A stretch of DNA of 64,000 nucleotides from Atriophallophorus winterbourni. Lineage: Eukaryota > Platyhelminthes > Trematoda > Plagiorchiida > Microphallidae. The notes beneath the pieces are model-generated. The model ran no database searches, was not told the origin of the DNA, and was given only the letters and a program-made list of their open reading frames with translations. Numbering within the stretch: the stretch's first letter is position 1; each line of letters starts with the position of its first letter. Below are positions 15,346-63,794 of the stretch, one piece after another. The translations under genes were made by a program, and so were the position numbers. The stretch covers positions 62,001-126,000 of the forward strand of contig JACCGJ010001637.1 of the NCBI GenBank assembly GCA_013407085.1, read 5' to 3'.

Positions 15346-15414
15346 TCTGGCATCAAAGTTGTCACTCCAGAAACTTCGACATTTAGTTCTATACAGCATG
15401 AATCCCCATTCGTC

Positions 15415-18531: not shown

Positions 18532-18539
18532 CTGACTTT

Positions 18540-21060: not shown

Positions 21061-21640
21061 TCCATGACAGCCTTCGACTGATCAACCATGTATCGAGCCA
21101 TGTATGAAACAAAAGTTTCTAAATTTGTTAGTTCTCGAATAGGGAATGACATAGTAACTTCTGGTGGAGGATAAAGATTCACAAGAAGCAAGGCTTGTGT
21201 TCAGTGGATGTGAACAATCTGAGGAAATATTTGCGATTGACCTGTTGCATTCACGAAAGTGACGATCAACAATAGTGTCTCGAATGTCATCAGTGGGAAC
21301 ACAACTCAATCTTGAGATGAGCTTAATACTTCTTCGGATCATCATGAAATCCTTTTCCAAAAGGCCAGGAAGAATTACGGGAGAAGCGTAAAGGAGGTGT
21401 GGAATGATGCAAGAAAAAACAAGAAGTTCAATAACTTTTAGCTGTATGGAGAGAGAACGGAGGGGGAAGGCATAGAATGACATTTGGCGCATCTTTTTGA
21501 ATTGATTTGCTACATGTTAGGCCCAGCTTAGGTTGTCAGATATTGATATGCCAAGATAATTGAAGCTGTAACTTCTTTCGAACACAGAGCCGTTGTCATC
21601 CATTTCGATTTGAATGTAACTAAACTGCTTGAATTTACCA
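21060..21640 (-). pseudogene. LINE reverse transcriptase C-terminal fragment, family A
   Basis: Read on the minus strand: a FNYLGISISDN-like block (about 21555), then an open stretch (21492-21082) with MSFYAFPLRSLSIQLKVIEL, FSCIIPHLLYASPVILPGL, MIRRSIKLISRLSCV and a HPLN-containing tail. This is the thumb and C-terminus of a Jockey/CR1-class ORF2, unlike the CR1 copies at 13.8 or 49 kb in wording. 5'-truncated. Confidence 0.65.
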
Positions 21641-21644
21641 AATC

Positions 21645-22400
21645 AGCAGCTAGGGAATAACAAACAAAGCACATACGCGCCGAATAAAAATACCCGCGGC
21701 AGTTCTGTTTGGAGTGCGTAAGTTCAAACTTGCAGCCGTGACCTCGGACGTTGTTAGAATATTGAAGGTATAATAATTTATCCAGGGGTTGAAAACAGTA
21801 GTAAGGATATTGTATACAATGATAAGATCGTATCGGATTCTCCTTTGAGTAAGTGTCACCATATCCAGTTGTCTGAGTCGCTGTACGTTTGGCTTATTTT
21901 CATAACCGTTGGTAAGATTAGGTTCTCTGTAATATAAGCAGTCTAGAAGTTAAATATCTTTCTGGAGCCATGGTGTATATAATGTTCAAATATTCACCGT
22001 AGCATACCTACAGCCGAGACGCGCATTGTTAAACGGCTTCGCATTGTAGACCATTTTTAAAACTACCGTAAATCAAGACACACGTGATTTTTCCTCCCAC
22101 TGTGTACTCCAGGATTTTGTCACCGCGCTTGTATGGATAGATTAGGCCAGGATCGCTACCGATCTGCATGATCATGGACTTTTTCATAATTAAAGGCATG
22201 TTGTTTTCTGACGATCAGTTGTACAGCGCATTCAAGTGGTTTTGTAGCAAAATACAATCATCAACATTGTTGATTCGCCTCCATACTTTCATGTCATCTT
22301 CAAACAGAACCATTTTACTGTCGTTTCGTCTCAGTAAATCGTTCATGTAGAACATGTAGAATACATATGAACAGCGCTTATTTCTGTTTTTGGTGCTATG
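21645..22400 (-). pseudogene. CR1-like LINE reverse transcriptase fragment, family B
   Basis: Minus strand: FYMNDLLRRNDSKMVLFEDD, MKVWRRINNVDDC (YADD region with Ala-to-Glu change), MIMQIGSDPGLIYPYKR, a frame change, then a tail RLRQLDMVTLTQRRIRYDLI and NYYTFNI. Several stops lie in between. It abuts the 21060-21640 fragment in the same orientation; the boundary is not sharp. Confidence 0.6.
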
Positions 22401-22754
22401 GAGCGATACATATGTTTGGCAGTAGCAGATAAATACTCAAATGTTGATTCCACAATTTAACAACGGTGAAGTCGCATAACTGTTTATACCCTTATTTTAT
22501 GCTCAGTAGTATATCATCTGGCACATACCTCATGCTGTCCGCTATAATTAATTGTGATCAACCCGATCGAATCATTTGAACATGTTCAGTTATCAAACAT
22601 GGCTCTGGAATTTAGGTCAAATCATTTCTCACTGTTACGAGATAATGGAACAGCTGAGCTGATTAAGAAAAGTTTGTTGCGCTACAGAATGTATGCATTA
22701 TTCTTTAAAACGATGAACAGAATATTGTCACTATGTGCTCTAAAAACAGGGAAA

Positions 22755-22830
22755 CTACGACGAGTATCCGCATGAACTTGAAATAGTGAAAGAATGGTGA
22801 ATAAGTTGCGCACTTGCGGTGTTTGATGAA
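22755..22830 (-). repeat. Hammerhead-repeat fragment
   Basis: A short decayed piece equivalent to the part of the unit just upstream of the ribozyme (ATCCGCATG, CTTGAAATAGTG, AAGTTGCGC). No core present. Confidence 0.5.
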
Positions 22831-23406: not shown

Positions 23407-23539
23407 CTGTTCAGGGAGAAACGCGTGGCATTAATTATGCCCAACCTAATTTTCTGAACGTTAGCAAATATGTAAACAATTTGCGCTTGTAAGCCACAAT
23501 TTGGTAAGGTTTGAACAACCGACCTGTTTAATCGCATAC

Positions 23540-25470
23540 GCCAAAAGTCATGTAGATAAGGTTAAACCCATGATCATGAGCGAACATACGCATTCGTAAT
23601 GAAATGCATGCAATTTCTTCATTGATATTAGTAATATATAACAATAATTTTCTAGGCACATTTACCGATATTAAAAAATTGTTTCATTCACAGGGTAAAC
23701 ATTTTCCGTTGAAGATTAAAAACGAATGCTGAAAACATTTTTTCTATACAACAATCACAAGGTCATCTTTTTCGTCAACAATGCGTTACACGTGCAATTT
23801 TTATCGGTTTAAGGATCAATACGAAGCTTACAAAGCACAAATAATATTAAAAATGTTGCATCTGAAATTTATACCTTGGTTGGTAGTGCCAAAATTCCGA
23901 ATAAATCAAACTTATATGAATCAGTAATACAATAGAAGGTTGCGTATAGGTGTCCTGGCAATATTCATGCATATATTTTAATGATTCGAAATATTCTATC
24001 CTGTTGAAACGGATGACAATATTATCTTGTTATTTTTTATATTAATTAATGAGTTCCAGCTAACAGTATATTCTCAATCGATTAACATCAGGAATCTAAT
24101 TTTCAAAAAACCATAGAGTTAAATCTCCTGTACAAAATTCGTCCTTACTCTAATACTCCTTTCTGCAACTTAAATTGTTAGGAAAACATTGATAATATGG
24201 TGTAAACAAATGTATTTGACATGGACATTCCATAAAAAATCGAGATGTGTACGCGCCCGAATGACTCAAGTGCAACAATACAATTTTCAGGTGCTCAATA
24301 ACAATCAGCTCATTCTATGAACAACTTGTCCAAGTTTCAAACAAATCATGAAAAATTGCAAGTTATTCAATTTTGAACTTTTAGCTTTCAAGCAACAACT
24401 TGCTTCCAAATGAACTTGCATTTTCTAAATTCCGATAACAAGTGCTAACCTTAACATGACTACTTAATTATAAATATATCAGTGTATTTATAGAATAGTA
24501 TTATAACCTAAGGCAATCAACTTGATAAACTAAGCTATAATTCACTCCAAAAAAGCGCGGATTTAGTAGGAGACAATATAATTTAATCAATGCAGGGTAC
24601 TTCGTAGCTGTTTGAATATGAGATCAATCACGTAAATTCTAAAAATTGTGATAAACGTGAGCTTTAAATTTCAACTAAAACACGAAGAGATGTTTATATA
24701 TAATTGGGTTTCAGGTCATTATATCAAATATCATATATTCCATTTGTATTGAGATATCCTCCTCAAGCGAATCGTCTAGTTAAACAATAACTGGCAAATT
24801 TGATTCCTATTCCATGAATTTTTCATACATCTTATGCAATGACTTTGTTGTGATTTCAACATTCTTCTAGAGCCCAAATTTATAATATTTTCAAAAAGGT
24901 TTTTTTCTTGTTCTTCTTCTTCATCATCATCTTCCTGATTTTTCTTCTTTTTTACTAGTCAAGTCCGAGTTTTATAAAGTACACTTCAAACTATCCCGTT
25001 TGCCGTGAAATGGCTTTTTAGTTAAACATTAGAAAATTGAATGTACATTATTCACATTATCCATTATATTCAATGTGCGAAATTATCATATAATAATCGG
25101 GGAACAAAGCAATAATAGTCGGAAATCAATTATGGCCATAAAGTAACTATGTTATCTCATGGCCTTCGTTGGATTGCATTATCTAAAACGATGTTTAAAT
25201 GAAAACTGGTAAAAGCTCGGGATTGGCACCTGACAAAATGAACTCTAATACCTCGAGATTACACACTTCTCTTCGAAAAGCGGATGATAATAAAGCATGC
25301 AACCTAAAGCCAATGTTCTTGTTTACTAAGTATGAGAGAATAATCGGTTTATTTTACGGATGGAAATTTTGTTCAAATTTCTTCTTAGCTGCTGCTAATT
25401 AATTGATGGAAACGAAAAACTGAATTTACGGTGAGAACAACACGACACTTGCTGATATGTCTATTAAATA
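23540..25470. other. Non-coding AT-rich DNA
   Basis: No coding blocks or repeats stand out except a pyrimidine run of TTCTTCTTC/ATCATCATC type at about 24900-24945. If 23092-23406 is an exon this could be its intron. Confidence 0.4.
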
Positions 25471-25477
25471 AATTTGT

Positions 25478-25576
25478 GTGTGATGGGAATGCATGCAAAT
25501 TGGGATAATTGTTCAACACGGTTTCAATCCCATCTACATGTGTTTTGCCACGTGATTGAATACGTTGTTCAAACCA
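25478..25576 (+). repeat. Hammerhead-repeat fragment
   Basis: Plus-oriented part of the unit behind the ribozyme cleavage site: GTGTGATGG, AATGCATGCAAATTG, then CATCTACATGTG and a GTGATTGAAT block. The ribozyme itself is missing. Confidence 0.6.
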
Positions 25577-26990
25577 AACATATGTAACGGTGGCTTACAA
25601 GTTCTTTGATCTAATTTGCTTGTTTACCAAATTGAAAGTATCAATAAGGGGCAAAAGCTGTGAGCAATTGAACCTTGGTTACTATGAGAATATGTTTGAT
25701 GTACGAGATGATTATGAATTATATATGAATGCTATTTCCTTTTCGATACATTCAAACAACGAATCTATTTAAAAACCGAAATACCCCGCGATACTGCAAT
25801 GCAAATAATTGACGATAAATGTTTGAGGCATACCAGAACAAACAATATTAAAGATTCGTGAAAACGGATGCTATGGATGTCAAACAACACTGATTGTTTA
25901 GTTCTATAGGTCGACGATGTTGAACACATACACAATCGAAACAATTAATCTTTACAACTAAGGCAACGAGTAATCTACGTGCTAGTAAGATATGTTCATT
26001 TGAGCTTGGATTCATAAATGAGTAACCACAACAGAGACCGGGAACACATTCAGCTTAGACACCAGTCTAGAAGGCAGTCTGTGTTGACCTTACCATCAGG
26101 GTAACGATTCGTTGGGGCACGCAACTGTGTGTGTAACATATACCTGCATTCAAAACGAATTGCATGACGAATAAATGAAATGAAATGCACAACTAATATA
26201 GTCTTGCTAGGCCACAACAATTAAATAACTGTCCTCTAATATGTAAGCGATATTTGAACCCCATATGTTCTGATCAAAATCCTTCTCCGGCTCCAAGACC
26301 TCTAAGTATGATCACTCCAACTAAAAACAGTCAGCGAATCGCCGGTAAGATACACGAAACGGCTGAATATTCAGAAGCTTTATAAAGCTTCATCACGATC
26401 GATGTAGGCACTAAGTTGATCTACTAATGACATATCCCAATTTAAGCAATATTATTAATGGTTTCTTGAAGTTATTTAGTAAGATATCAATATTGTTGCT
26501 TCTCACATCCGCGCAAAAATTAATATTTCCCGTTTACCCGTGCATATCGAATTGGTGTAGCAAAATAATTTTTAGTTGCCTCTGTATGAGTTTTATGGTG
26601 GAAAACATGATGTATTTTTGTTACCACTGTTAGGTAGAGTCTTTCCAAAATAATCTTACGTTCAAATGTAGAATCATAACAGGATTGTAGTTTAAAAAGC
26701 CAATGATGTATCATTGACAAGTGCTGCTGGTTACATCCATGGCACTTACATACACGAATGGTTTCCTGGTGTATAACATCACGGAGACAAAAAATAGTTT
26801 CGATGAGCATTGAAACAACTAATATGTTTTAAATTTCACGAAAAGATGATTCAGCCTTTAATCGATAGAGCGTATTCAAGAGCTATCAATAGAACGACAT
26901 GAGGGTTGGTGACCAAATGTCCGAAGACTGCAGCGTGAAAATTCTGATTGGAAATGTTGTCTGCACTATCACTAAAATAAATATAAACTT
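25577..26990. other. Non-coding DNA
   Basis: Short frames on both strands (25590, 26427, 26520) lack motifs. Nothing recognised. Confidence 0.4.
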
Positions 26991-26993
26991 CGT

Positions 26994-27366
26994 ATTATCT
27001 CAATAACTCCGCCAAGGACGGTCCCAAGCCCGTCTGAGAAAGGAGGAGGGTTGGGCTTAGGGCTAGCAACCCTATCCCGTAAAACCTACATTGCTACGGA
27101 AACGATGACACCAGATCCGTGGTTCGGTCATGTCTGCAGGATGGATCCCAGTTCGCATACGAAGGTAGCCATGCACTGGCATCCGCAAGGTAAACGAAAA
27201 AGGGGACGGCCCAAGGAAACTTGGCGCAGAACGTTGGAACGCAAACTACATGCACAAGGATTCACGGTGCAGACGGCAACGGAAGCAGCGGCAGACCGGA
27301 ACCACTGGCGTGAAGTTGTCTTCGCCTCATGTGCCACCCGGCACGGAGAGGACTGAATTATCTCAA
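26994..27366 (+). mobile_element. Internally deleted mini-RTE with target-site duplications
   Basis: A 353-bp insertion (27004-27356) flanked by perfect 10-bp direct repeats ATTATCTCAA (26994-27003 and 27357-27366). The first 80 bases are a GC-rich leader; the rest, from about 27105, encodes the very C-terminus of an RTE ORF2: WFGHVCRMD, PQGKRKRGRPKETWRRTLE, DRNHWREVVFASC, RHGED, then TGA. The stop codon is the last codon before the duplication. Endonuclease and reverse transcriptase are absent, so it must have been mobilised in trans. Family differs from the RTE at 7.4-10.5 kb. Confidence 0.85.
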
Positions 27367-28940: not shown

Positions 28941-29800
28941 TTGTTTGGCCTTACGGAAGTGTGAATGAAATCCACTGACCGATTAGCGTGATTGCGTAAA
29001 GTGTGCACACGCTAGGGCTAGCGCACGTCAATATTTATCTATTGCAAAACCGGATGCCAGATTGGTGAGATTTCCGCTCTATCCACCTTGTTCACGACAT
29101 ACTTACCAACCTGTTATCTCAACCTATCAGCGTGAAGTCGTTCCTTGTATGGTTTTAGCACGCGTTTCTATGATGAACGCTATGACTGTTATCCAGAATA
29201 AGTTCAGCTAAGGCTGAATCCCGCATCGATGATTGATATTCACTGGAGTGGAGTGGTTGATACCCCATTTCATTTTGTGTTCGTTCATCCTAGTACTGAG
29301 TGGATGGGCGGAAATCTCCACAGTCTGCCGTCTAGATATATAGCCGATAAACAATACCGTGCGTCACCTCTAATGTATGCACGCTTACGCAAAAAGGCCT
29401 ATTGTTCAGAATATGTTGATCAACCCAGCACACAACAAAAACTAATAAGAAAGTATACAGCATACAGGTGATGCTTCAATGGACCTTATACTCTTCTGTG
29501 TATCTTGATGTTCACAGCGACCACCATGGCCGGTGTCATTCTTAGACAACTTAGGATTGCTCAAGTGAATACAATATAAAACCTGATTACAGTTCATACA
29601 CACGTGGTCTTTTACACATACTGTCTAACGAAACACACAACAAGAAATAGATTTGTAGCAGAAATTTTGTGATGATAGAATGAGACTTTTCAAAGTTTGT
29701 CTGAGTTGTTGTTGTTCTCCTCGGCACATGCTAACCATTATTATACATAGTTCCTTCCCTAAATGCGTTCACAATGATAGAACAGATCGATTCAGGAGAA
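28941..29800. other. Non-coding DNA
   Basis: One open frame (29229-29471, plus, 80 residues) with no recognised motif. Nothing else. Confidence 0.35.
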
Positions 29801-30250: not shown

Positions 30251-30394
30251 ACTGTTTTTGGGATGGAAGGAAAATGGTAGCATCTTTAGTAAATAGCAGG
30301 TCGCGGATGGCGGATTGCGTTTATGCTCCAAAGCTTTTCAGGCTAAAAGCTTGTCATGAAATCGCGTGCGTAAATATATTCCTTCTGATTTCAA

Positions 30395-30560
30395 GAAACT
30401 CATTTGCATGCTTTTCCGACCACACACACAACGACCGGTTTCGTGTTGTTTGCACTCATCAAGTAGGGACAGTATAATCAGGATCCGCATGCTCCTCTGT
30501 TCTGGTTCCAAAAGCAGATCAAACAATATACTGAACTGCGTGCCAGCATGAACGCACTCT
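30395..30560 (-). repeat. Hammerhead repeat, monomer, decayed ribozyme
   Basis: Unit on the minus strand with ribozyme-derived core at 30427-30468. CTGATGA is changed to TTGATGA, stem II to GTGC/ACAC (one mismatch); GAAA, ACCGGT and GTC persist. It sits between two parts of an RTE element. Confidence 0.75.
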
Positions 30561-32744: not shown

Positions 32745-33092
32745 ATCATTGAAGCGGATGTGATCCTGACCCTACTAATGAGTGCAAACAGCAGGAAACC
32801 GTCCGAGGGGTGTATGTGATGGAAGTACATGCAAATGACCATTTTGGTTCATGGTTATCGGTTTTCGACCATCTACATGGAATCGGGCATATGCGATTGA
32901 ACGGGTTTGTCACACAAACGATAACAACAGTTGAGTACCCTCGCAAATTATTTACCATTCTTTCACTGTTTCAAGCGCATGCGGATCCTGATCCTGCTGT
33001 TTACACTTGATGAGTACAAATAGCATGAAACCGGTCGTGGTGTGTGTGTATGTGTTATGAAACAGCATGCAAATGAACGTTTTTGATTATTC
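32745..33092 (+). repeat. Hammerhead repeat, direct dimer on the plus strand
   Basis: Two decayed hammerhead-derived cores in direct orientation, cleavage positions equivalent after 32804 and 33036, i.e. a 232-bp unit between them. First core (32770-32810): CTAATGA and a damaged stem III. Second (about 33000-33042): TTGATGA, stem II GTAC/GCAT, GAAA, ACCGGT and GTC retained. Older than the 37.8 and 55.8 kb copies. Confidence 0.75.
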
Positions 33093-37746: not shown

Positions 37747-38120
37747 TAACGCCATAAAACAAGATATTCATTTGCATGCTTTTCCGTCACAAAACACCCT
37801 ACGACCGGTTTCGTGCTGTTTGCACTCATCAGGTAGGGACAGTAAGATCAGGACCCGCAGGCGCTTGAAACCGTGGAGGAATGGTAAACAAGGAGCGCTT
37901 TTATGCCACTGTTGGATAAGGCTGGTACGACCAACCTGTTCAATCACATGTGTCCAAACACATGTTTAATGGGATTAAACCTATAACCATGAAACAAGAT
38001 ATTCATTTGCATGCTTTTACGGGTTTAACCCCATTAAACGTGTTTGGACACGTAATTGAACAGGTTGGTCTTACCAGCCTTATCCAACAGTGGCATACAA
38101 ACGCTTCTTGTTAACGCCAT
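37747..38120. mobile_element. Hammerhead-repeat insertion with 9-bp target duplications
   Basis: Flanked by TAACGCCAT at 37747-37755 and 38112-38120. Inside (37756-38111): one complete unit on the minus strand including an intact ribozyme, the start of a second direct unit (ATTCATTTGCATGC at about 38004), then a partial unit in inverted orientation ending CTTGTT. The outer ends match those of the insertion at 55764-56230. It has no coding capacity. Confidence 0.85.
37797..37838 (-). ncRNA. Hammerhead ribozyme, type I, intact core
   Basis: Minus strand 5' to 3': stem I CCCTAC, core CTGATGA, stem II GTGC-AAACA-GCAC, GAAA, stem III ACC/GGT with no loop, cleavage triplet GTC, stem I return GTAGGG (six Watson-Crick pairs). 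Every invariant core base is present. A loopless stem III means efficient cleavage probably needs a dimer, as known for the hammerheads of Penelope-like elements, retrozymes and newt satellite RNA. Confidence 0.88.
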
Positions 38121-41095: not shown

Positions 41096-42641
41096 AATTG
41101 AGCACGTAACTTACCTACGGTTTTAAACTGTGGCTCACAATTATGCAACACAGGTCATTAAAATGTTAATGTGCATGCCTGAGTCTACTCAGTGTGATCG
41201 ATGTTATCCTTCATCGGTGTTACACTAACTCCGCTTAATTAGTCGAGGCATAAAAAGCCTCGTCAAATTTCAATTATTTCAAAATTATCTCATAGCTACG
41301 AAGATAGACTGTCTACATGATTGCTCCGGTGTACCTTAAAATTAGTAATACCTTTATCTGTATTATTCAAACGTTTTTGTGTGGTTATTGCCAGTCTTTT
41401 TTATAGGTAAACATATTATCCTCCATTGATTAAAGTGACAGACCAAGACGTCGCAATCTGTCAGTTGACGGGGCATTGCGATGATCCATCATTTAATTTG
41501 TCGCTATAAGAAATTTTATCGGAAAGTGCAATATCATTTCGCGGTCTGGGCTCCTTTTCTTCAAAAAGATTGTCTTTTTTGATAGAATGTATTATAGAGC
41601 GACAAAGAAATTAATTTTTTGTTCTCAAAGTTTCTTACACTGAAGCATTGTGACGTCTAGGTTCATGTGAGTTTACCCAAAGCGGAATATCGTGCGATAT
41701 TATTCTCACTCGTATAAATGTGTCTACCGAATGATATCCAATAAGACATTTGTTTCAAGATTGTGGTTATAAAGTGACACGCAGACATTCCTTATACCTT
41801 TACATCCGTAATTCCCATATTGATCGTCAGAGCTATATTTCTGAAATTCTATACCACAACATGTGATCGTATCGATATTGAAAGTGATATTGGAATTTCA
41901 TACGCGAACACGCATTATTCTTGATATATGCATTTGATATACTCAACTGGTTATATAATATGATTTTGAACATTTTCATTCATACTTGAATCCAAAAGAA
42001 AAAAATTGGAACTTCAAATTTGGCAACAAATTTAAATGACGTTTAATTTTCGGTCAAATATTTGTGATTTACCCAGTGAATCTCAATCAGCTATGGACGA
42101 TTATTTTACGAACGAGTAGGATTTTATCAACCGTTTAAGTTGATAAATTTTCACGCTCAATCAAGACTGATAAACTACGTCGATTTAGCTGACAGCTGCT
42201 TATTCCAATCATGACATCATGTCAATAAATGTGTCTAAATTTGTGTACACAATAGCCAGAACTCGACGGGGGACAGGTGTTACAAAATATCATCCCACGA
42301 ATATAAAGTAATAATATTGGACTACCAGAAATGAATTTCAAATCGAGAATACTAATATTAAAAATGCTTAACAACATTTTAAAAATATGGTCGTATATAC
42401 GAATAAATTAATGTGAAAAGATATTTCATTGAACTGCGTTTATTTCAAGAGTTGACTCTGGGTGTTTCAAGGCTTACTGAAACTGAACTCGTTAGTCGAT
42501 AGATACTTGCAAACAACTCTGGAAACGGTAGTGGAATGTACTTGCTGGTGACACAAGCAAAACTACATTTGTCAGTTTATATCGGATCTGGTCATTCACG
42601 TTTTAGCAAGCAACTCAGCTTAGAGTAAAAAAGCCTAATTT
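41096..42641. other. Non-coding AT-rich DNA
   Basis: No frames, repeats or motifs of note. Confidence 0.4.
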
Positions 42642-42990
42642 GTATGCATTTCAATCACGCACACTCAGCGACTGTGTTCGTGCTGTTTGCAATCAACAGA
42701 TAAGAACAATATATTTATAATCCGCGGGTCTTGAAAGAGTGGGGAATGGTAAACGAGTTTTGCTTGTGAGCCACTGTTGGGTGAGCATAGTACGAGCAAC
42801 CAGTCAAAAACCATGTGCCAAAACACATGTCGATGTTGTTAAAACTATGAGCAAACTAATCATTCGCATGCAGTACCATCATACATACACCACATGACCG
42901 GTTTCTTACATTCATTGAACCAGTGTAGGAACGGTTGACAAGGTTCGAAGTTGTGAGTGACTGTTAGATACGTTTGGTATTATTAAACTG
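42642..42990 (-). repeat. Hammerhead repeat, direct dimer, decayed
   Basis: Two units on the minus strand, GACC/GACT positions about 226 bp apart. First core (42664-42706) keeps stem II GTGC-like pairing and GCAC but has TTGATTG and GAAC. The second has lost stem II and CTGATGA but keeps ACCGGT and GTC at about 42896. Oldest copy of the family here. Confidence 0.65.
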
Positions 42991-43261
42991 TTTATTCAGA
43001 CCTGGAAGCGAACGTGTTGTTTTTCGTTTCAATCCTATGGGTTCAATTCCATTCACGAGTGTTTTGGTACATTTTTTGTCGTAGCAACATTAGCTAAATG
43101 TAGATTACAAGTTGAAATCCAGCTTAACCCTTTAGCGACCACTTTTTTTGCTGATTAAGAAAAAATATTTTTGTAAATTTTTTACACTGAAATTATAACT
43201 ATAGGGCATAATTATACATATAAATACTTAAAAGTTTAATTCCGAAGGAAAATTTATAAGA

Positions 43262-43490: not shown

Positions 43491-44872
43491 TTAGTTCTGA
43501 TGAAAAGCTTCAAAGCAGTTCCTGTTTCGCTCACAACACAGATGTACAACGCATTTCTTGCAAAACATGTGTATTTTGCCTTTGCAACCTGGAATTTTAC
43601 ACATTCCTCTGTTCTCATGAAAAGTTGGTAAGTGATTTACACCATCATTCCTGATACTTTCATCCGGAATGGGTACTGTTGCTTTTCCTGTTTTCCTTTC
43701 CTTTGAATACTTTTGCTGCACACTCTCATCTGATTGTCTCCCTCTCCTCTTAAGAGTGTGCTTTCCACTTTTGATCAAGGAATTTGCCAGCTGCAGTTTG
43801 AAGTCACATAAGGATGTCTTATTATAGTATGCAACTCCCTTAGATTTTTCAGCTCTTCGCAATAGTAAGTAGCTGTTCACCACTGCCATGTCAAACAAGT
43901 GAAATATTAGTCTGAAATAATATTTCTTAGTGCGGAAATTCATGCGGTAGTATGCCATGTACTGGTCATGCAGATCAGTACCCCCCATATTATTGTTGTA
44001 GCATGACACAATATTAGGAACTACTACCTGTATCCTCTCCTTTGCTTTGCGGTCAAATTTCTCTCGCTGATGTAATGGAGCAGACATCAGGAAACTAGAA
44101 GCAAGGCAAACAGACCTGTTATCATGCCATTTCACAGCAGTGATTGAAACGCCATCAATTTCAGTCATATGTTCATCAAATGAACCTCTGCCCCGCTCAC
44201 GTAACTGTTTATCAGACTTAAATTTCAGCACTCTAAGTCTTCTTGGTTGAACGGTTCCACATACCCATATTTGCCTTGATGCCAAATGAGAAATTAGTTT
44301 CAGTGATGTGAACCTGTTGTCTAAATAGATCTTGTGGTTTTTCCCATCTGGAATGGTTTCGGCCAAGTTCAGAACAGCATTGGAGCTTGGACCCAGATCA
44401 GGGACACTGACATTTGCATGCATATTCCCAACCACTGTTCGAATTCCAAATTAGTTAGATTAAGGGGTTTTGATGGATCGTTTTGCAGAGCATACAAATT
44501 AGTTTGTTCACAAATTTGTTCTATTAGGTCATCAGATACCAGACTCTTGAAGTAAAGCATTGGAGACTCAATGTTGTCATTCTCGATAAGATGGCTGTCA
44601 AATACGTGAACATCCTCTTCCGTATGTGAAGTTCTCATAGAATGCCAATAAATACGATCAGATTTATTCCTTATGCTTGTAACTGCAGTGTCAACACAAC
44701 GTTGTTCAGTAAGTATGTTCTCTTGATCCTTCACATTGTGTTCATCTTCACTTAAATTTTGCATGAGGGCTTCAAAATCAGGATACAGAACAACATCATC
44801 AGAAAAATCTGACTCTATATCACTTGTACAATCTAGTGTGGCTACTTTACTGGCGATGCTGCTGGGCTTCAT
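43491..44872 (-). pseudogene. piggyBac 2 transposase with internal deletion
   Basis: From the ATG at about 44872: an acidic N-terminus (SDIESDFSDDVVLYPDFEAL), then the start of DDE_Tnp_1_7 (PMLYFKSLVSDDLIEQIC, LEFEQWLGICMQMSV, about 44415). There the frame shifts and continues at SVPDLGPSSNAVLNLAETIP, YLDNRFTSLKLISHL (second catalytic Asp), WHDNRSVCLASS, NNMGGTDLHDQYMAYYR (third Asp), and a C-terminal cysteine-rich zinc domain (CKIPGCKGKIHMFCKKC, CCERNRNCFEAFHQN). Family members have about 140 more residues between QMSV and PDLGPSSN, including the VDEQ box with the first Asp. That block is gone and the join is out of frame. Total remaining is about 460 codons. Confidence 0.9.
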
Positions 44873-45365
44873 CCTCGTACCTAAAAACAAGAAACTTGTA
44901 CGTATATTTTTTTCTCAATTAAAAAATCACTTGTTACGTCACATCGCCTTACTACAGCACAATTATAAAAGAATAAATTGCTGATAATAATTGACAAATG
45001 ATTATGAACAAAAGATGGAATACATTTGGGAAATATTTAAATCCCAAAATATGTCGTGTATTCTGTGACAAAATATATATCAAGATTATAAATTAAACTA
45101 TAACATTCGAATCATTTCTTTTGTAGCTATATGATCTTTATTTATTTGAGGTTTTATATTCAAAAGATCATGTCATACTACTTGGCTATGCAACAATCAA
45201 AGGCTCTAAATAATGTGTTTGAAATACAAATAATTCCATTGTTATGTTGTTTTGAAATGATGAATGTCATTGGAAATATTAATATCTGCCGAAATATCTA
45301 GTTAGACAATTAATTTGGTGATAATAAATAGTAATATTCGGAAAACGAATCATCAAGACCAACTA

Positions 45366-47489: not shown

Positions 47490-49330
47490 CCATGTCAGAA
47501 TTTGCAGGCGCACTAGAAAATGGTTGAGAAAGCGTAATTTGAAATGAGCTATCCACAAGATCGCCAGAAAAGTATCGATCTGGGCAAACTGTCGCAAATT
47601 GCGAGATCAAGTCACAAATCTCATCCAGGAGGATAAACAATATCACGAGCTTGAGCTGGAAGTAAGAATGCAACGGAATTACAAACTGCTTTATCAAAAT
47701 AATAACAACATTACGATGCTGAAACCCGGTGTTTTTCACATCATGAAAGATAACGAACTAAGTAATTCTGTCCTAGAAACCACTAACGCTCTAGCCAGTT
47801 TTATTCACCAGTGTTCAGGCCAAAGAATGCAATACTGTCGTCGGAATTGTCAGCATCAATTGTGCCGGAGTCTATAAGCGATGTATGTATCAATCCTAAA
47901 ATAGTGCAGTACCACCTACGCAGGTTGAATATCAACAAGTCCCCGGTAGCTGACGGAATCACACCTGCAATCGTACGGTTATGCTGCATTCAATTGTGTT
48001 AACCACTTTGCGATTTATTTAATCACTTTTTGAGGGATGGTGTTGTACCGATTGCCTGGGAGAAAAAAATCATAACACCCATTTACAAAAATGAAACTCG
48101 TTTTGATCCAGCAAATTGCCGTCCGTTACACTCCTTCCTAGGATCTCAAAATTTATGCAGCGAATTGTCTGCGGACGAATTGTGAGTCATCTGGAAACCC
48201 AAAACTTGCTGTTTAGAGAGCAGCTGGATTTCGGAAGTCTCGTTCAAGCTTCCCTGACCTACTGCAGACAATGAACGACTGGACACAGGCAGCGGATTAG
48301 GGTGGTTGTGTACATGTATGTTACTTGGGCATATCAAAGGCGTTTGATCTCACGGACATTTCTATACTCCTGAGAAAGCTGCAGGATGTTGGTATAAATG
48401 GGTGCCTTCTTATCTGGCTGCGGAGCTACCATTTTGATCGCAAGGTAAATGTATGCATCACAGGTATCACACCTCTAGGGACATCGAAGCCACTTACGAT
48501 ATTCCACAAGGTTCGACACTTGGTCCGGTATTTTTTCATCTGCATCAAAGATCTTCCGAAGTTTGTCATAGCCAAAATGGCTTTCTATGCGGGTAATGCT
48601 AAACTTTGGATACAAATCACGCCAAGCGTGGATTGTTTACGCTTGTAATGCAATTTGGATGAACTGAACGGTTGGTCAAAGCAGAACAAGCTTATATTCA
48701 ACTACAGAAATTGCACAATGTTGCAAATAGGTTAAGATATCCTTTTATCCTACCACCTTGGACAACAACAAAAAACGACCTTGGCGTATGTATTAGTGGA
48801 AGTCTTAAGAATAGTATGTAATGCGAAGCAGTACACAACCAAGCTAGCCGCATGCTGGGTATGCTTCGGAGTATTTTCGGACGTGAAACATTCCCCATGC
48901 TCCTGAAAACGTACATTGATGGATTTCTCAGTGCAAGATTGGGCACAGAGCAACGAAATTGGTTGGCTGTCTCCGCAACCTACAATATGAGGATCGGCAC
49001 GTACATCTTAATTTGGATACAGTGCCTCGTAGACGGGTTCAATTGCAGGTAATCCTCACTTATAAAATAATGAACTCAAAGATGCATCCTCTAAGGCATC
49101 TATTTCGCCTTCGGTCAAGACATGTCAAACGTACTCACGCACTGGCATTTGATATTCCACATTCCCACCAGTACTGCCGTCGTTCCTTCTACTCGGTGCG
49201 CGTTTGTTTCTTATGAAACTCCTTACCGTCAGATGTTGTACAATCAGCTAGTGAAAGGATATTCATGAAAAAACTGGATATATTTATTCGTAGTTGTTTC
49301 ACCCTACATACCGTTTATATAACTTAGTAG
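47490..49330 (+). pseudogene. CR1-like LINE ORF2, linker to C-terminus
   Basis: Plus strand: linker with RKLRDQVTNLIQEDKQYHEL, RLNINKSPVADGITPAIV (entry to RT), FNHFLRDGVVPIAWEKKIIT, PIYKNETRFDPANCRP, LGISKAFDLTDISILLRKLQ (palm Asp replaced), LLIWLRSYHFDRKVNV, IPQGSTLGPVFF, FYAGNAKLW (degraded FADD), NDLGVCISGSL, RMLGMLRSIFGRETFPMLLK, ILTYKIMNSKM and a tail NSLPSDVVQSASERIFMKKL. This is the most complete RT of the CR1 type in the window though frames change at least six times. The 3' end is near 49320. Endonuclease is absent. Confidence 0.8.
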
Positions 49331-54116: not shown

Positions 54117-54770
54117 TAATTCAGGTTTCCAAATTATTGCACAACAACTGTTTAAGCGAAAAATATGACAAGATGGACAACATCGGCAGCAATCGAACGA
54201 TATGCAATTCGTCAATATCGGTCAAACGAGCCTTGTGTGGCGAGGGTAGGAAGTATACCGGTTGGCATGAAATCGATTGGCAAATCAGCTCGAACTGACA
54301 ACAGGGATAGACATGATTCATGATCATTGTTGTGGTTGTTGATTTGTCTATATAAGATAAACGTGTGTTTTATTATTGGTCTTTGGTGTAGTGAATACCT
54401 TTGACCAATCGGCTGATGTTGTGGCACTCGTGGGTGAATACGATTTGCGTTGAAAAGTTTGACCCCAGGGATGAATGAAGACAATCGATGCGCGTGCGTG
54501 CAACACGAGGAGAGTATAGTGGTTGATAATGGACCGATTACCCGAATGCTGCAATAGGTGTCCAGATGTTCACCAGCTGTCATTTCCACCTTCTATCCCC
54601 TACCGCTGCAATATTTCGTTTATTAGCTTATTGAGCGCTTATTCAGGAATCGCATTGTGATTCGACATTTGAGCAACTTTGTTCTTTAATGTATTGGAAA
54701 AGTTTGATGACCGATTGTGTAATCATATTCATTAAATAGAACGTTTGTAATGCATCGGTTAGAGCAGTCT

Positions 54771-54983
54771 ATTGGTAACGTTTCGCATCAGACACAGAAG
54801 CTTCGTCGGACCAAGTGAGTCAGTAGCAAGGTGTGCGTGCATTTTAATCTCACCGGTCTATTTTAACGAGCTCAGCGCCAACAAGAATTTCATTGAGAGC
54901 TCAGAATTTTTCATCTAAATACTATTTAAGCTGACACTATTGATCTAATGATGCTTCTTCGTCAAATGTGAAACGTTACCAAT
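54771..54983. repeat. Foldback with ATTGGTAACGTTTC arms
   Basis: Left arm 54771-54807 and right arm 54948-54983 are imperfect inverted copies, the outer 14 bases perfect (ATTGGTAACGTTTC). Part recurs at 63140-63295. Confidence 0.6.
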
Positions 54984-55750
54984 TAACTTGGTTGTTTGTT
55001 TTAGCCCCATTGAATGGTGATTTCAAATGATGATTACTTTTATCACCTGAATATCTTATAACACCTGATTATGTTTTCTGCATAGAATGACGGCAAACTG
55101 CCGGAAATCGGCTGTGGTATGCAACTGCCGGTTGTAATCAACGTGCTTTATTTATTCTAGTGTTGTTATTATCACAGAAGTTCACTTTCGGGGATTTTAG
55201 CTAAGTAGACATTATCTTCATTAATACATACCGTATATAATCAGAATTGATTGTGATTCTTCTTTAGGGATGTATGTAGAACCAGAGTTATCTCGCGTAA
55301 AATAATCATTATTTAATGATTGAATTTTCAAGTAACGTTCATTTGACGTGAACATAGAATATCTTGCATAGACATTTGCCTCAATCTACACGTTTGCATC
55401 TTTATTCATTATGTTATCGACATAAATGTTCAAATAGCGCCTCGTATATTAAGCGTAACGTTGTGTATTTCATTTTCGCTGCTGACATTGTTGCAATGAT
55501 GAGTTTGCCAGATCATCCCCGCATTGCATCGTGTTCAGTTAAAGACTCGGGAGAAACAGTTATAGCTATAGTATATTTAGATAAAAGATATTGATTGGAG
55601 TATATATATATATATATATTCTTATATTCAACGGTGATTAAAACCTTTCGATATACCTATATTTATTCGGTAATCGTGTACATTAATTTTCGAAAATAAA
55701 ATAATTTCTGTCGCAGAATAGAAAAGTTATTGGTGTGCACCTTTTTAAAT
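54984..55750. other. Non-coding AT-rich DNA
   Basis: A frame at 55364-55594 has no motif; an AT run lies at about 55602-55620. Confidence 0.4.
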
Positions 55751-55802
55751 AACCCTTTTAACTATAAAACACATTTGCATGCATCTCCTTCACACAAAAA
55801 CA

Positions 55803-55844
55803 CCCCACGACCGGTTTCGTGCTGTTTGCACTCATCAGGTAGGG
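55803..55844 (-). ncRNA. Hammerhead ribozyme, type I, intact core
   Basis: Minus strand: stem I CCCTAC, CTGATGA, stem II GTGC-AAACA-GCAC, GAAA, stem III ACC/GGT without loop, GTC, stem I return GTGGGG (five Watson-Crick pairs and one G-U). Self-cleavage expected after the C at plus position 55809. Compared with 37797-37838 the one stem I change keeps pairing. Confidence 0.9.
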
Positions 55845-56039
55845 ACAGTAGGATCAGGATCCGCATGCGCTTGAAACAGTGGAAGAATGGTAAACAAGTT
55901 GCGCTTGTATGCCACTGTTGGGTAAGGTTGGTACGACCAACCTGTTCAATCGCATGAGGCCCCACTCATGTAGACTGGGTTTAAAACCCCTGACCATAAA
56001 TATAAAACACATTTGCATGCATCTTCTTCACACAAAACA

Positions 56040-56081
56040 CCACACGACCGGTTTTGTGCTGTTTGCACTCATCAGGTAGGG
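56040..56081 (-). ncRNA. Hammerhead ribozyme, second of the dimer, core mutated
   Basis: Same layout as the copy at 55803. GAAA reads AAAA (invariant G12 lost) and stem I has one mismatch. CTGATGA, stem II and GTC are kept. Expected to be inactive or very slow on its own. Confidence 0.8.
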
Positions 56082-56243
56082 GCAGTAGAATCAGGATCCG
56101 AATGCGCAAATGTGTTTTATATTTATGGTCATGGGTTTTAAACTCAGTCTACATGAGTGGGGGCTCATGTGATTGAACAGGTTGGTCGTACCAACCTTAC
56201 CCAACAGTGGCATACAAGCGCAACTTGTTTAACCCATTTAACT

Positions 56244-57677: not shown

Positions 57678-58253
57678 TCAACAATTTGTTCCTACATGGT
57701 TTGGTCCCAACCATATCCCACCATCACTTTCTGCGACTGCCAGGCGTTCATTCTCGTCTGATCTCTTGGAATTCGGTGTGGTGCTTGGAACAAATGTAAC
57801 TGTCCTTCTGGGAACATTCGTTTCTTGAGGTGGACTATGTGTTCGACAACATTGAAGACATTGTAAGAAGGTTTTAAATTCTTGACGGAAATTGTTATTT
57901 AGCCAGGCATAGAAGAATGGATTGTAAACAGCGGAGCTCATAGCAAGGATATGACACCAAATGAATGCTTTCGATAACGTGTCCGACTCATCGACACCTT
58001 TTTGAGAAGTGTCGACGATCATCCAGAATGTATGCAACGGTATCCAACAAATCACAAATATCACCACCATGGCGATTAGCATTTTCGTCATTCGCTTTTT
58101 GCGTTTGAACTCGGCCAGTTCTTTTTCCCGATTCTTCAATCCGATACGTAGCTCACACCTTACACGAAGCGCGCGACACACTCGATAATAACAAACCGAG
58201 ATGATCAAACACGGCACGACAAATTGAAGGACGAAAGTGACGATGGTAAACAC
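57678..58253 (-). CDS. Neuropeptide GPCR, terminal coding exon (TM5-TM7, C-tail)
   Basis: A minus-strand frame of 191 codons entered through a splice acceptor (CATCGAACAG, AG at 58254-58255), phase 0. Residues 1-25 form TM5 (IVTFVLQFVVPCLIISVCYY). A basic third inner loop follows (LKNREKELAEFKRKKRMTKM). TM6 carries the class A signature CWIP in MVVIFVICWIPLHTFWMIVD. After a short outer loop TM7 reads CHILAMSSAVYNPFFYAWLN with NPxxY in the form NPFFY, then helix 8 NNFRQEFKTFLQC with a CLQCC palmitoylation-type cluster. The Ser/Thr-rich tail has likely phosphorylation sites. RMTKMLIAMVV, LAMSSxxYNPF and AWLNxNFRxEFK are typical of NPY/NPF-like and related neuropeptide receptors. It is a plasma-membrane receptor coupling to G proteins; the ligand is inferred only. 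Exons for TM1-TM4 lie further up on the minus strand and were not located. Confidence 0.88.
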   Translation of the reverse strand: MFTIVTFVLQFVVPCLIISVCYYRVCRALRVRCELRIGLKNREKELAEFKRKKRMTKMLIAMVVIFVICWIPLHTFWMIVDTSQKGVDESDTLSKAFIWCHILAMSSAVYNPFFYAWLNNNFRQEFKTFLQCLQCCRTHSPPQETNVPRRTVTFVPSTTPNSKRSDENERLAVAESDGGIWLGPNHVGTNC

Positions 58254-58255
58254 CT

Positions 58256-59967
58256 GTTCGATGAAAAATGTACAGAATTGATGTTTTATTGATTACATTA
58301 AAAGTGACATATGGCTAGGTTCATTCAAACACAATTCAACTAGCCGCGGGCGATTTTGAACAAAATGCGAAGTATATGCACAAAAATATAACTCCAGTAT
58401 TACCTCGTAAATATTAAATGGAAAAGGCATTCGATTATATGACTGGATTTCTATGATTAATTTTAGTTGGAAATAGGATAAGTCTCTAAGGTAGTCATGA
58501 TTCAAATTCTAGCAATAAAACTTTATATAAGGATGTTCGAATTAGATGTTATACAGGATGAAAAAGAGCATCTACCGCGACAGTGGATGTCTTTTGTATT
58601 CACAACGGAATAAAATCTCAACGAAAACTTAAAGGCATTGAGGAGTTAATCGCTTCCCGCAACATTTTACTTTGGTCATAAATAAGCGCCTTGAACTTCT
58701 AGCAGCACCAGAGGTCATGGCTGCATGTTGAAAATATTACACCCCAAATGGTACTGTCGCAGGTATTTTCATTCATTGCGTTTTTTAATCCCTACCAGCC
58801 AATTTTTTAAACTCAAAGAGTTTATTTATATTCGAATCAAAACTGGATGATTTTATGAGAGCTAACCCTGATTCACCCAAAATATTTATAATCTATCCCA
58901 GTCATGTGCTCCCATTTATTATATATAAATTTATACTACGAATCTGCGGTTAAACTAAAGTTAATTGCTTTTTTAACCATAAATCTTGAATCTTGAGTGC
59001 TTCATGAGGAATCATTTTGTGATTCTGTGTGTGATCCTTGTGGTTCGTTGCACCAACCTCAATCAACCGTGGCTTCAACGACTCACTTTGTTCAAAACCA
59101 TAATGTTTTCATCCCATTTGTCATATGCGAGTAATTTTACCTTTCGTTATGGATTGGCTTATGTCAAGGAAGCTGTTTGTTTACGTTAACGCGACTATGG
59201 AGGTAATGTCAAAATAAATCCTTCAATATGGACATTTATGCTTATTTAACACCAATTGACACAAAAGCGAATAATGTTTAGCCAACGCTAATACTTTAAT
59301 ATTAATAATGTGAATAAGTTTCTAAATCAATTGTATCTTGTTAAAACTTATCATGCCTTTACTGCTGTCTTCAAAACAATTATACATTTTACATCAACTC
59401 ATTATAAACAAACCAGCTTATTGCCTGAGCAACCTCGTAATCGACATATTGATCGAAATGATTGTTCGTAAAGACAATGAAAATACAACTTTTCCTATAA
59501 TCTGAAAAGTGGTTTATAATGTTGCATTGTTTCGCATGACTGATAATCTAAATTTAATTGAATATAGATTTGTAGATTAAAAAGTTATGAGACTATCCGA
59601 GACAATCGGGTGGGATAGGTTAACTGCAAATTCGAAATGTTTATGTGAAACAAAAATAGCAAAACACATTTTGTTTTGCCTAAATTTTCTCAAAGTACGT
59701 GGGAGTTAATTAAAATCTGTTCAAATGATAGATACAAATACCTTATGAGCAATTTGATGATTGTTTATTTTCAACATCGAGATTAATCTACACTAACTAA
59801 ACTAAACTAATCGAACGTGCCAACTATATTCAGAAATAAGAAATATACGTGCAAATATGTAAGTGAAGTTCTGCGAAACAATCTTTAACATCGTGAGTTT
59901 AGGTTAAAACTTTTAGAACATCAAAAAACAAAAAAACTTAATGAAACTGAATTAAATGGCAAACAAA
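58256..59967. other. Probable intron of the GPCR gene
   Basis: No coding block recognised on either strand; AT-rich. Confidence 0.45.
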
Positions 59968-60160
59968 TTTAGCGCTTGTTTGTTAATGTTGGTTAAGGTT
60001 GCCACGACCAACCTGCTCAATCACATGTGCCCAAACAAATGAGGTTAGGATTGAACACATGTTGCTTCAACCAAAATTCATGTGCAGCATTTCCATCAAA
60101 CGCACCCCACGAACGGATTTTTGCTGTTTGCACTGTTCAAGTAGAGAGTTGCGGTCCCTA
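59968..60160 (-). repeat. Hammerhead repeat, monomer, decayed
   Basis: Minus-strand unit with GTTTGGGCACATGTGATTGA, AGGTTGGTCGTGGCAACC and a wrecked core at about 60104-60147 (CTTGAACA, stem II loop AAACA and GC stem partly kept, CCCCAC stem I arm). Confidence 0.65.
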
Positions 60161-61709: not shown

Positions 61710-63139
61710 CTAGGAAGATAGCTGTCTTTACGTTTCTTATTTACAAACAACTGAATTTCATGGCCACCTCAAGGTAATTTCATGTCTCGCTTATAATTGA
61801 TAATGAATTTACATTCATGTTTAATTGGGAAACCAGTTTTATCCATCGTGTCCATGATCTCAATAACCAGCTCCAAAATACCACATCTCAATCATTTCGA
61901 TGCCAATAACAGTCCAAAATTTTTATTCTATTTGATGCGATTTCCACAATTTTTAATCAATATTGAATAAAAGAATATAAATTGACTGATCTGAATTTAG
62001 TCGCTTTTGCAACATGATTGTTTAAGTTGAAAAGATGATTTCATTGCTTCTCAAACGAAAAATGTTTTGGTTGCTATTAATGATTTTTGAATTAAGACAT
62101 ATTGATTTTCAGAAATACGGTCGAAAAGCAGGGGTAACTGTAGAACGGAAATGATTCGTTTCGCTCACAACATGAGATTAACCATTGAATTCAAATCTGA
62201 TTAAGTGTGAACTTTTAGGTGATTATGCTTGGCTTGCCCGGAGGGAAATTGAGATGGCGAGCTAGATTTAATTAGTGGCTCCCTCGGTTCAGCAGGAATT
62301 TGTCTGGAGGAATAACAAAGGGAAAATTACTGTCAGATCATGTTGAGTAATTTCCATCGAGATATAACAGCACGCATTAAAGGGAACAGTTATCCGATAA
62401 CACTAGCTATTGAAAATCTGGACGATCAGAATCCACGAAAGTCACGGATATTACATATCGTTTATGAAATGCAGAGTTAAAAATCTGCTTTAGAATCAAG
62501 GTTCTTCAAAAATGGTGTCTTACTTGCCATGGTTTTAAAACTAACAATAACGTGTTTTTATATACGGCAGTTATTACTCTTTACATATTATATTATCTTT
62601 AAATAAAAGCGGTTTTTGAGATATGTTTATGATTGTTTAAATTTTCTAAATTCGCCTACAAATAACTTATCAGCTACAACATAGTGTAGTTCAGTATAGT
62701 ACAAATAGCGAATAATGTGAAAATCGTGTGTATTTCTGTGTTTTAAAGCAAATCATCGGTTAAACATCCGTGTCAATTTTTTTAATATACATTTAACGGT
62801 AATGAATGCATATAGTAATAACAACTAATCTGTCTCGGTAAAGAGAAGTGATACCGCATTATTGGTTTCTCTCCTACATCTTTTCGTTACACATAGTTAC
62901 AAAACTCATATTCTCTGCTGTACATGTACTACATTGTGCAAAACGTTTGCGCGTAATGTCTATAAGGGCTTTCCCGACGTACCATTTGTCTCCCAACTTT
63001 GTTCTATGTCGATAACCGATAAACCACTCTATCAGGTGATATAATATATTATACACAACATTTTACATTTGATTTCAAATCAGCAATTGATTTGAATATG
63101 TTTGACTGATCGCGTATTCATAATGCAAATGGATTTGAG
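61710..63139. other. Non-coding AT-rich DNA
   Basis: Frames at 62862-63056 on both strands overlap each other and have no motif. Nothing else. Confidence 0.4.
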
Positions 63140-63295
63140 TGCAATCGGTTAGATCAGGTATTCGGCAACGTTTATCTTCTGGTACAGAGAGGTCGTCAGA
63201 CCAAGGGTGATAGTCAGCGCAGGTAACATGACTAAGTAGCAGTCAACCCAGTTATGCATGATTCATGACACTTGGTCTCACGAAGCTTCTGTGTC
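63140..63295. repeat. Repeat related to the 54.77-kb foldback
   Basis: ATCGGTTAGA, GGCAACGTTTATC and CGTCAGACCAAG parallel 54754-54812; the end (GAAGCTTCTGTGTC) is the reverse complement of 54790-54804, so the copy is itself inverted. Confidence 0.5.
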
Positions 63296-63794
63296 AAAAG
63301 CTGATTTATTACTTCGTTTGTATATTTTATGTAGCTTTTATGAGAAATTGGTTCGTCCGGCTCTTGGGAATTTCAAACGTACAAATTAAGGTGTTTTAAG
63401 TCCTTTTTGAATGATGATATGTAGAAATGCTCCGAATTCCCAGACATTGGAAAGTATCTAACTTCTGTTCATAAGGTACATGTGTCGTCCATGTTGCTTG
63501 CAAATATCAACAGTAGGCACCTAAAAGGTCATCTATAGAAATATGATGAATCCTGTGAAATCATTTTAGTCGTTCAGCAAGATTATTTCAGTATATGCGA
63601 AGATTTTGAAAAAAACGGAAAAGACGAATTTTACTTTTGGCACAGAAACATAACTGTTTAACCCCACAATATTGAGATATTGGATCTGCGCACATTTAAC
63701 TCAACAACTAATGATTTTAAACTACTTCGAACTTATATTCAAGTAGTAAAAGCATTGCCTGGCTATGAAAGTCGTAGTTTATGTTGGATAAGTC

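Follow-up and report, generated by a model that had tools for sequence, protein, structure and literature searches.

A dispersed 237-bp hammerhead repeat of Atriophallophorus winterbourni and its resemblance to a Penelope-like element of the same genome

Hammerhead-bearing copies in the window

The window analysed is a stretch of 64,000 nucleotides from the genome of the trematode Atriophallophorus winterbourni, in which copies of a hammerhead-bearing repeat with a consensus unit of 237 bp (from 160 monomers), here classed as a retrozyme, were mapped. A young head-to-head insertion of this repeat occupies 55764-56229 (-) and includes the region first noted, 55803-56081. Its direct arm (minus) extends from 55764 to about 56106 and comprises 1.4 units, and its inverted arm (plus) covers about 56106-56229. 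The insertion lies between the copies of a 14-bp target-site duplication, at 55750-55763 beside the direct-arm (3') end and at 56230-56243 beside the inverted-arm (5') end, which agree at 13 of 14 positions (p=0.015). A type I hammerhead with intact core and loopless ACCGGU stem III was found at 55803-55844 (-), its predicted cut falling after GTC with the C at 55809. The second hammerhead of the insertion, at 56040-56081 (-), is probably inactive because its GAAA became AAAA. An older head-to-head insertion at 37756-38111 (-), with a minus-strand direct arm and a plus-strand inverted arm from about 38021, is flanked by 9-bp duplications (37747-37755 and 38112-38120, p=0.035) and holds a type I hammerhead with six Watson-Crick stem I pairs at 37797-37838 (-).

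The sequence-only reading had proposed complete type I hammerheads at 37797-37838 and 55803-55844 of the minus strand, and both were confirmed at these coordinates and on this strand. The minus strand reads CCCTAC, CTGATGA, GTGC AAACA GCAC, GAA, ACCGGT, C, GTAGGG at 37.8 kb, and CCCUAC CUGAUGA GUGC AAACA GCAC GAA ACCGGU C GUGGGG from 55844 to 55803 at 55.8 kb, which bears out the loopless, self-complementary ACCGGU stem III that had been described. The form is minimal, with six pairs in stem I and four in stem II, and it lacks both loop 1 and a loop on stem III. Its loops are presumably unlike those of the Sm-alpha hammerhead. Canonical loop 1 - loop 2 contacts, looked for as a retrozyme feature, were absent from the hammerhead of the 237-bp unit.

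The covariance-model search suggested along with that reading was run, and Rfam Hammerhead_1 gave 33.7 bits (E 1.3e-4) at 37.8 kb and 32.9 bits (E 2.5e-4) at 55.8 kb. Both scores lie just under the Hammerhead_1 gathering score of 34 bits, therefore a default Rfam scan misses both hammerheads; nothing was listed when the window was scanned at the gathering threshold. The curated cut-off on its own would have discarded a real family. The copy at 56040-56081 scored 23.1 bits. With R1, a covariance model built here from 20 family hammerheads, the scores were 72.2 bits for 37797-37838, 72.1 bits for 55803-55844 and 58.4 bits for 56040-56081, and the R1 search of the window gave nine hammerheads at E<0.01, the best two of which are training rows of R1. 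The bare pattern CTGATGA-N(5-25)-GAAA occurred twice in the window against 1.28 expected and was not significant, as 38 of 100 shuffles reach two. The evidence for the hammerheads is the full fold and the copy number rather than the bare pattern.

All nine places at which the unit had been reported were matched by one monomer in an nhmmer search of the window, which gave additional unit pieces at 23.5, 33.0 and 38.0 kb. An older tandem copy at 32754-33079 (+) bears hammerheads at 32770-32809 and 33001-33042, and a short copy of about 100 bp at 30394-30496 (-) bears one at 30427-30468 (R1 51.9 bits). Decayed hammerheads were seen in an old tandem copy at 42630-43002 (-), at 42663-42705, and in an old copy at 59954-60146 (-), at 60105-60146. 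Old partial copies were found as monomer matches at 22734-22816 (-), 23461-23621 (-) and 25475-25602 (+), and a short head-to-head copy at 20613-20699 (+) consists of an inverted piece (20613-20661) and a direct 3' end (20669-20699). A decayed hammerhead at 55080-55117 (+) resembles that of a sister family with helix II CGGC/GCCA (R1 20.1 bits, E 5.5e-4).

In a Pfam scan of nine long frames of the window, made in search of a partner of the retrozyme, only 15301-16008 matched RVT_1; the frames 21082-21516, 21528-21893 and 48301-48648 gave no match. Gypsy-type reverse transcriptase (RT) and RNase H remnants extend over 15301-18806 (+), and a piggyBac-type transposase remnant (DDE_Tnp_1_7) lies at 43491-44914 (-). 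A rhodopsin-type receptor exon is present at 57678-58292 (-) with its best named relatives in flukes and a tapeworm; its 15 matches are mostly fluke or tapeworm proteins, the best being from Paragonimus at 50% identity. A type-P1 twister match at 27000-27054 (+) (51.3 bits, E 1.6e-8, below the gathering score of 67.2) opens a LINE-like C-terminal frame at 26976-27356, recognised by eye and without a Pfam match. Truncated twisters are mentioned at the 5' ends of RTE elements (PMC7761336).

Ribozyme fold, copy number and insertion anatomy

The genome-wide copy count that had been called for was made on 537 Mb in 15,840 contigs. The exact core CTGATGA-N13-GAAACCGGTC was counted 6,215 times (2,998 and 3,217 by strand) and never in the reversed-genome control. 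The dispersed repeat family is real and very abundant, with thousands of copies; the core-to-core spacing on another contig is mostly 233-234 bp. The repeat has the retrozyme characters of a tandem unit of 150-450 bp with a type I hammerhead, a GC content below 50% (46.8%) and no long open reading frame, the longest open stretch of the tripled unit being 73 codons.

Covariation was analysed in 20 hammerheads picked for diversity from 68 distinct intact-core sequences; as only intact cores were taken, the conservation of the core in this set is by selection, that of the helices is not. Paired helix cells amounted to 88.5% against a shuffled mean of 80.8%, and helix cells with two-sided changes to 10 against 3.3, neither value being reached in 500 shuffles, which related rows may beat. 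The pairs with two-sided changes (58 of 500 shuffles) and the further pair types (44 of 500) were not exceptional. The covariation of the helices speaks for a functional fold of the source copies. The dimeric form expected from the loopless stem III was also obtained in modelling, where two strands are predicted to co-fold as a double hammerhead sharing the six-pair ACCGGU stem III, with a predicted energy of -32.3 kcal/mol, compared with -14.1 for each of the two strands by itself. Shuffled controls made it less likely that the unit as a whole forms an unusually stable rod, since the real sequence folds only slightly better than they do (z -1.5 to -1.8).

Insertion anatomy was examined in the window, in L009-L028 (around the best hits) and in L030-L049 (around core hits). 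The former are the best matches to the window dimer and are biased toward young, long inserts; the latter are 20 regions chosen from 100 listed core places, of the 6,215 counted. Target duplications of 10-17 bp were found at p<=0.02, relative to random flanks, in 16 of the 61 clusters away from locus ends, where about 1.2 would be expected, and 45 of the 61 had none at this threshold; these duplications exceed 4 bp as in retrozymes. The outward ends fell mainly into two regions, 43 of 81 at unit 70-89, which is 34-53 nt past the ribozyme cut, and 13 at unit 190-199, with the remaining 25 elsewhere (6 at 40-49). The opposite ends (n=47) were scattered over 17 ten-base bins, the largest holding 11 at 0-9 and 7 at 120-129. 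The outward-facing ends would mark the places where copying must have begun.

Two arms in head-to-head orientation were present in 16 of 67 clusters, 9 of these having one end near each site and 2 having both ends at 70-89, and a tail-to-tail arrangement was found in one of the 67, a composite with a sister-family copy. The layout is that of PLEs (Penelope-like elements), with a head-to-head inverted arm and tandem units between duplications. The insert of L044, for instance, measures 1,396 bp with a perfect 14-bp duplication, its two arms comprising about four and 1.75 units. Five single-arm inserts with duplications, of 103-116 bp, start at unit 198-208, adjoining the 3' side of a predicted stem.

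The flanks of 17 sites (the 16 duplication-bearing clusters and the 37.8-kb insert) read AAC, duplication, GTT, with a median duplication of 13 bp. The base counts were A 12 at -3, A 13 at -2, C 9 at -1, G 7 at +1, T 14 at +2 and T 15 at +3. This symmetry is what a single nuclease would be expected to leave by cutting at N^GTT on each strand, with about 13 bp between the cuts. Poly(A) was absent at the retrozyme junctions displayed. As judged from the sequences, the repeat is a retroposed non-autonomous element (retrozyme) and not a plain satellite.

Long arrays of 40, 28 and 34 segments are present in L021, L024 and L028. Neighbouring units in long arrays differ by 7-12%, and in the array of L024 units six apart share more variants than neighbours do (26% vs 5%), giving a higher-order period of about 1.4 kb; from these differences and this period, arrays probably also change at the DNA level. 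The right ends of the L024, L026 and L027 arrays all fall at unit 75 and are followed by a common flank; the three contigs probably represent a single array, or alleles of it, that the assembly has broken up. The sister retrozyme family has helix II CGGC/GCCA (outermost C/A unpaired) and stem I CTCCAC/GTGGAG, with copies at L012 3406 (-), 3932 (+) and 4942 (+), L016 6391 (-) and L045 455 (+); at least two of them retain, by eye, the block CAACAGTGGCAT..CAAG..CTTGTTTACC..CCACTGTTTCAAG around the second start site. A further hammerhead core, CTGATGAAGACAAACAGCCAGAAACCGGTC, at about 3127-3158 (-) of L029 has surroundings without homology to the 237-bp unit and recurs 12.7 kb away on the same contig.

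The two copies of a duplication differ at 7 of 223 positions (3.1%, 17 sites). In duplication-bearing inserts the units of the same arm differ at 141 of 3,250 positions (4.3%) and those of opposite arms at 104 of 2,880 (3.6%), a comparison drawn from the 11 of 17 sites with overlapping units (duplications there 6/146), with L044 giving about half of the positions and with young inserts favoured by the need for a recognisable duplication. When all dispersed clusters are taken, the difference is 1,145/14,848 (7.7%) within inserts and 16,776/228,091 (7.4%) between them, L014 supplying over half of the within-insert differences and single clusters ranging from about 2 to 12%. Shared variants numbered 54 against 1,145 differing ones within dispersed clusters and 172 against 16,776 between them. 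Since the difference within inserts equals that between inserts overall, only the young inserts carry the sign of a single template. Their units look near-identical at insertion, as repeated copying of one circle would give, and a circular template is favoured.

The Penelope-like element of the same genome

An abundant PLE is present in the genome. Part of its gene, an end that looks GIY-YIG-like by eye, lies at L012:7045-7425, and 150 scored matches to this end were taken out of 11,337 first-look candidates in the genome. The PLE end found first is degraded; it had no match in a protein search, and its PDB matches look like chance. PLE pieces of the proposed partner in L050-L055 matched RVT_1 (E 6.3e-9) and GIY-YIG (E 0.036, below the Pfam cut-off). 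Some PLE copies follow one another head to tail about every 2.75 kb, and open frames reach 878 aa. Among the 120 homologues listed of 981, most carry PF00078 and PF26215 and a few PF01541; the best named matches of the reverse transcriptase include fluke proteins, beside bacterial-labelled and cnidarian ones. The window itself contains a PLE terminal-repeat fragment from the hammerhead region to RT-start site 2 at 54688-54815 (-) (76% identity, query 356-483), head-to-head terminal-repeat fragments at 63080-63301 (-) (63080-63209 minus, 63268-63301 plus) and a remnant of the endonuclease-coding end at 29043-29259 (-), recognised by tblastn pieces and a nucleotide match. Beside a retrozyme insert in L031, a 34-bp PLE hammerhead fragment at 1028-1061 (+) lies between 10-bp direct repeats (p=0.003) and is perhaps a very short insertion.

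A hammerhead is also present in the terminal repeat of the PLE; its helix II is AGCUUCU/AGAAGC and its stem III ACGU. Among 20 flanks, the 3' ends lay 43-51 nt past the predicted cut in 7 and 85-94 nt past it in 9; of the other four, one runs on, one ends early, one alignment stops at +80 and one is without a match. The 85-94 nt end is in accordance with the 85-92 nt that follows from the anole PLE, in which the cut lies 26 bp after the start codon and the RT start at 111-118 (PMC11167929).

The triplet GTT was present 8-16 bp beyond the PLE arm ends in 11 of 20 flanks of >88% identity (background 18%, p=2.4e-4; control windows 4, 1, 3, 2) and in 13 of all 27 flanks (p=3.7e-4; controls 8, 1, 4, 3), the offset range having been chosen from the retrozyme duplications and a few PLE flanks coming from one insert. 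At the retrozyme ends GTT was found in 19 of 34 at >=85% identity (controls 9, 5, 4, 7) and in 20 of all 46 (controls 13, 8, 8, 9). Of four younger PLE inserts with both ends, two carry duplications of 13-14 bp; both are two-armed, with an inverted arm from site 2 and a direct arm from site 1, and one precedes GTT, the other sitting in a TGAATT-rich stretch. Among 14 PLE fragments, many of them old, two have a duplication at p<=0.01, and one of these, L051, is also among the four younger inserts. The link to PLEs, drawn at first from the form of the hammerhead, was strengthened, as the junctions, the target sites and the RT-start distance resemble those of the PLE of the same genome.

The retrozyme and the PLE share some sequence at their ends. 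When GATGCATGCAAATGTGTTTTATATTTAT from the end of the retrozyme is aligned with GATTCATTGCAAACTCTATTTTCATGATTAT from that of the PLE, the two are almost in register, and the segments of the whole unit that match the PLE end best start at unit 52-59. The end-likeness score was reached by 13 of 5,000 shuffles and, in another test, by 42 of 10,000, 14 of them in register; it was also reached by 526 of 30,000 natural 50-mers of the genome in a control with copies masked. Other retrozyme subfamilies share only the CAT-GCAAA core with the PLE end. The likeness is modest and suggestive. The unit may have originated as the terminal repeat of an older, since ORF-less PLE instead of as an unrelated element that took to using the PLE; such an origin is compatible with a spread by the present PLE. 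The common order of hammerhead, about 45 nt and RT start speaks for such a descent, as do the 3' end likeness and a second common stretch, TGAACA..GTACCAAC (72 of 2,000 shuffles under stringent scoring). Against it, helix II and stem III of the retrozyme differ from those of the PLE hammerhead of this genome, the best retrozyme-PLE alignment is unexceptional under looser scoring (780 of 2,000 shuffles), and no longer alignment was found.

Proposed cycle, rival explanations and known systems

The repeat is probably a non-autonomous, non-coding retrozyme with a minimal PLE-type hammerhead that is spread by a PLE-driven cycle. The hammerhead fold with its covariation, the preferred ends, the head-to-head arms, the duplications, the target motif and the matching PLE are read from sequence, and from these we infer cleavage, circles, rolling copying and the identity of the PLE as the enzyme. 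The best reading is that PLE enzymes copy the retrozyme RNA in trans, perhaps as a circle. Tandem retrozyme copies would first be transcribed. Neighbouring hammerheads would then pair through ACCGGU and cut after GTC, and a host ligase would close the 237-nt monomers into circles. The endonuclease of the co-resident PLE would cut the two strands of the target at N^GTT, the cuts being about 13 bp apart, and both freed 3' ends would prime reverse transcription on the retrozyme RNA at the preferred internal sites, 34-53 nt past the ribozyme cut (unit 70-89) and at unit 190-199. Repeated passages of the enzyme round the circle are possible, and finally both cDNAs would be joined head to head and filled in, giving the 10-17-bp duplications. 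To the PLE enzyme the retrozyme would present a PLE-like hammerhead with a start region, copied in trans most simply as a circle. The anole PLE protein cuts and extends both strands, uses two internal RNA starts and needs no target match (PMC11167929), and rotifer PLEs can move in trans sequences framed by their terminal repeats (PMC3846280).

We tentatively propose a more specific form, dual-primed rolling-circle retrotransposition, in which the two ends of a single staggered PLE-type cut would simultaneously prime reverse transcription of a ribozyme-made circle, each from its own preferred start and for several rounds. If true, it would write head-to-head tandem arrays directly and offer a route to new satellite arrays. 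Several observations stand against the copying of the retrozyme by the PLE: the start at unit 190-199 has no recognised PLE counterpart, 25 of 81 ends lie at neither site, the 3' end likeness is modest, helix II and stem III of the two hammerheads are unlike, few PLE fragments have duplications, 45 of 61 retrozyme clusters have none at p<=0.02, the unit folds little better than its shuffles, and the sign of a single template comes from young inserts.

A serious if doubtful rival is that the PLE machinery copies an uncut multimer, the hammerhead being a passenger or acting later and the circle being unnecessary. Ribozyme mutants of the anole PLE insert normally in vitro and unprocessed RNA is called the dominant substrate (PMC11167929), which counts against PLE copying of a ribozyme-made circle and for the multimer. 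The sequence of the inserts continues across the cut site, where the template must thus have been uncut, and in the dispersed clusters taken together two units of one insert resemble each other no more than two units from separate inserts. Against the multimer, the units and arms of duplication-bearing inserts are about as alike as the duplications themselves, whereas array neighbours differ by 7-12%; this argument is weak, young inserts being over-represented among those with duplications.

A LINE with an APE-type endonuclease could also move the repeat, with inverted arms arising from twin priming. LINEs are known for 5' inversions, and LINE-like frames were recognised by eye in the window and the loci, with weak or absent Pfam support. 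This explanation is unlikely, since the junctions displayed have no poly(A), there are two preferred priming sites, the motif flanks the duplication left and right and the genome contains a PLE with comparable features. A plain tandem satellite spread by unequal exchange or extrachromosomal circles, with the hammerhead as a relic, is very improbable, as it is contradicted for the dispersed copies with duplications by those duplications, the preferred outer ends, the head-to-head arms and the helix covariation, though the long arrays, one with its six-unit period, point to DNA-level amplification inside arrays and such processes may enlarge them after insertion. The copying of retrozyme RNA by PLE enzymes remains the best reading.

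Animal retrozymes, PLE hammerheads and PLEs as suspected partner are already known. Cervera and de la Pena (2020) regarded PLEs, on account of their co-occurrence with retrozymes and the shared hammerheads, as a strong candidate for the partner (PMC7229834), and a review considers PLEs likely candidates and states that retrozymes have no conserved motif that helps to deduce the partner (PMC7761336). As far as the available text of these two sources goes, the enzyme spreading animal retrozymes was so far a suggestion without junction evidence, and neither describes fixed RT-start sites, head-to-head arms or a common target motif (PMC7229834, PMC7761336). Among the titles and abstract openings surveyed on retrozymes and Penelope-like elements, none reports such junction evidence. 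What this genome adds is junction-level evidence (start sites, target motif, duplication length and arm layout) pointing to a PLE. The question becomes testable with a protein class already assayed in vitro, and it concerns a route from RNA circles to satellite DNA.

The repeat agrees with the metazoan non-LTR retrozymes, as described in the sections available, in being a non-coding tandem repeat of 150-450 bp with a type I hammerhead and GC <50%, in having thousands of copies and duplications >4 bp, and in sharing its genome with PLEs (PMC7229834, PMC7761336). Those retrozymes have mostly canonical hammerheads with loop-loop contacts, whereas the 237-bp unit has a minimal one with palindromic stem III (PMC7229834, PMC7761336); it was therefore classed as a variant of the metazoan non-LTR retrozyme, with a minimal PLE-like hammerhead lacking loop 1 - loop 2 contacts. 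The satellite retrozymes of newt and axolotl also have a weak stem III, and they cleave best as dimers, the form predicted for the 237-bp unit, but their units are 330-350 bp, with a one- or two-pair stem III plus tetraloop and loop 1 - loop 2 contacts (PMC7229834). Sm-alpha and the W-elements of Schistosoma mansoni are likewise flatworm tandem repeats with some dispersed copies, and four W-element families hold hammerhead-like sequences; their units of 335 and 403 bp differ from 237 bp, and they are likened here by description only (PMC8490949).

No ORF with RT or GIY-YIG endonuclease was found in the 237-bp unit, which has no long frame and is therefore not a PLE, only PLE-like in behaviour. 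It differs from PLEs in this and in the place of its second start site. Rotifer PLEs have tandem units, an inverted extra terminal repeat, partial tandems and 8-10-bp duplications (PMC3846280). The anole PLE has terminal repeats with a minimal hammerhead and an internal RT start downstream of the hammerhead, as in the 237-bp unit (PMC11167929).
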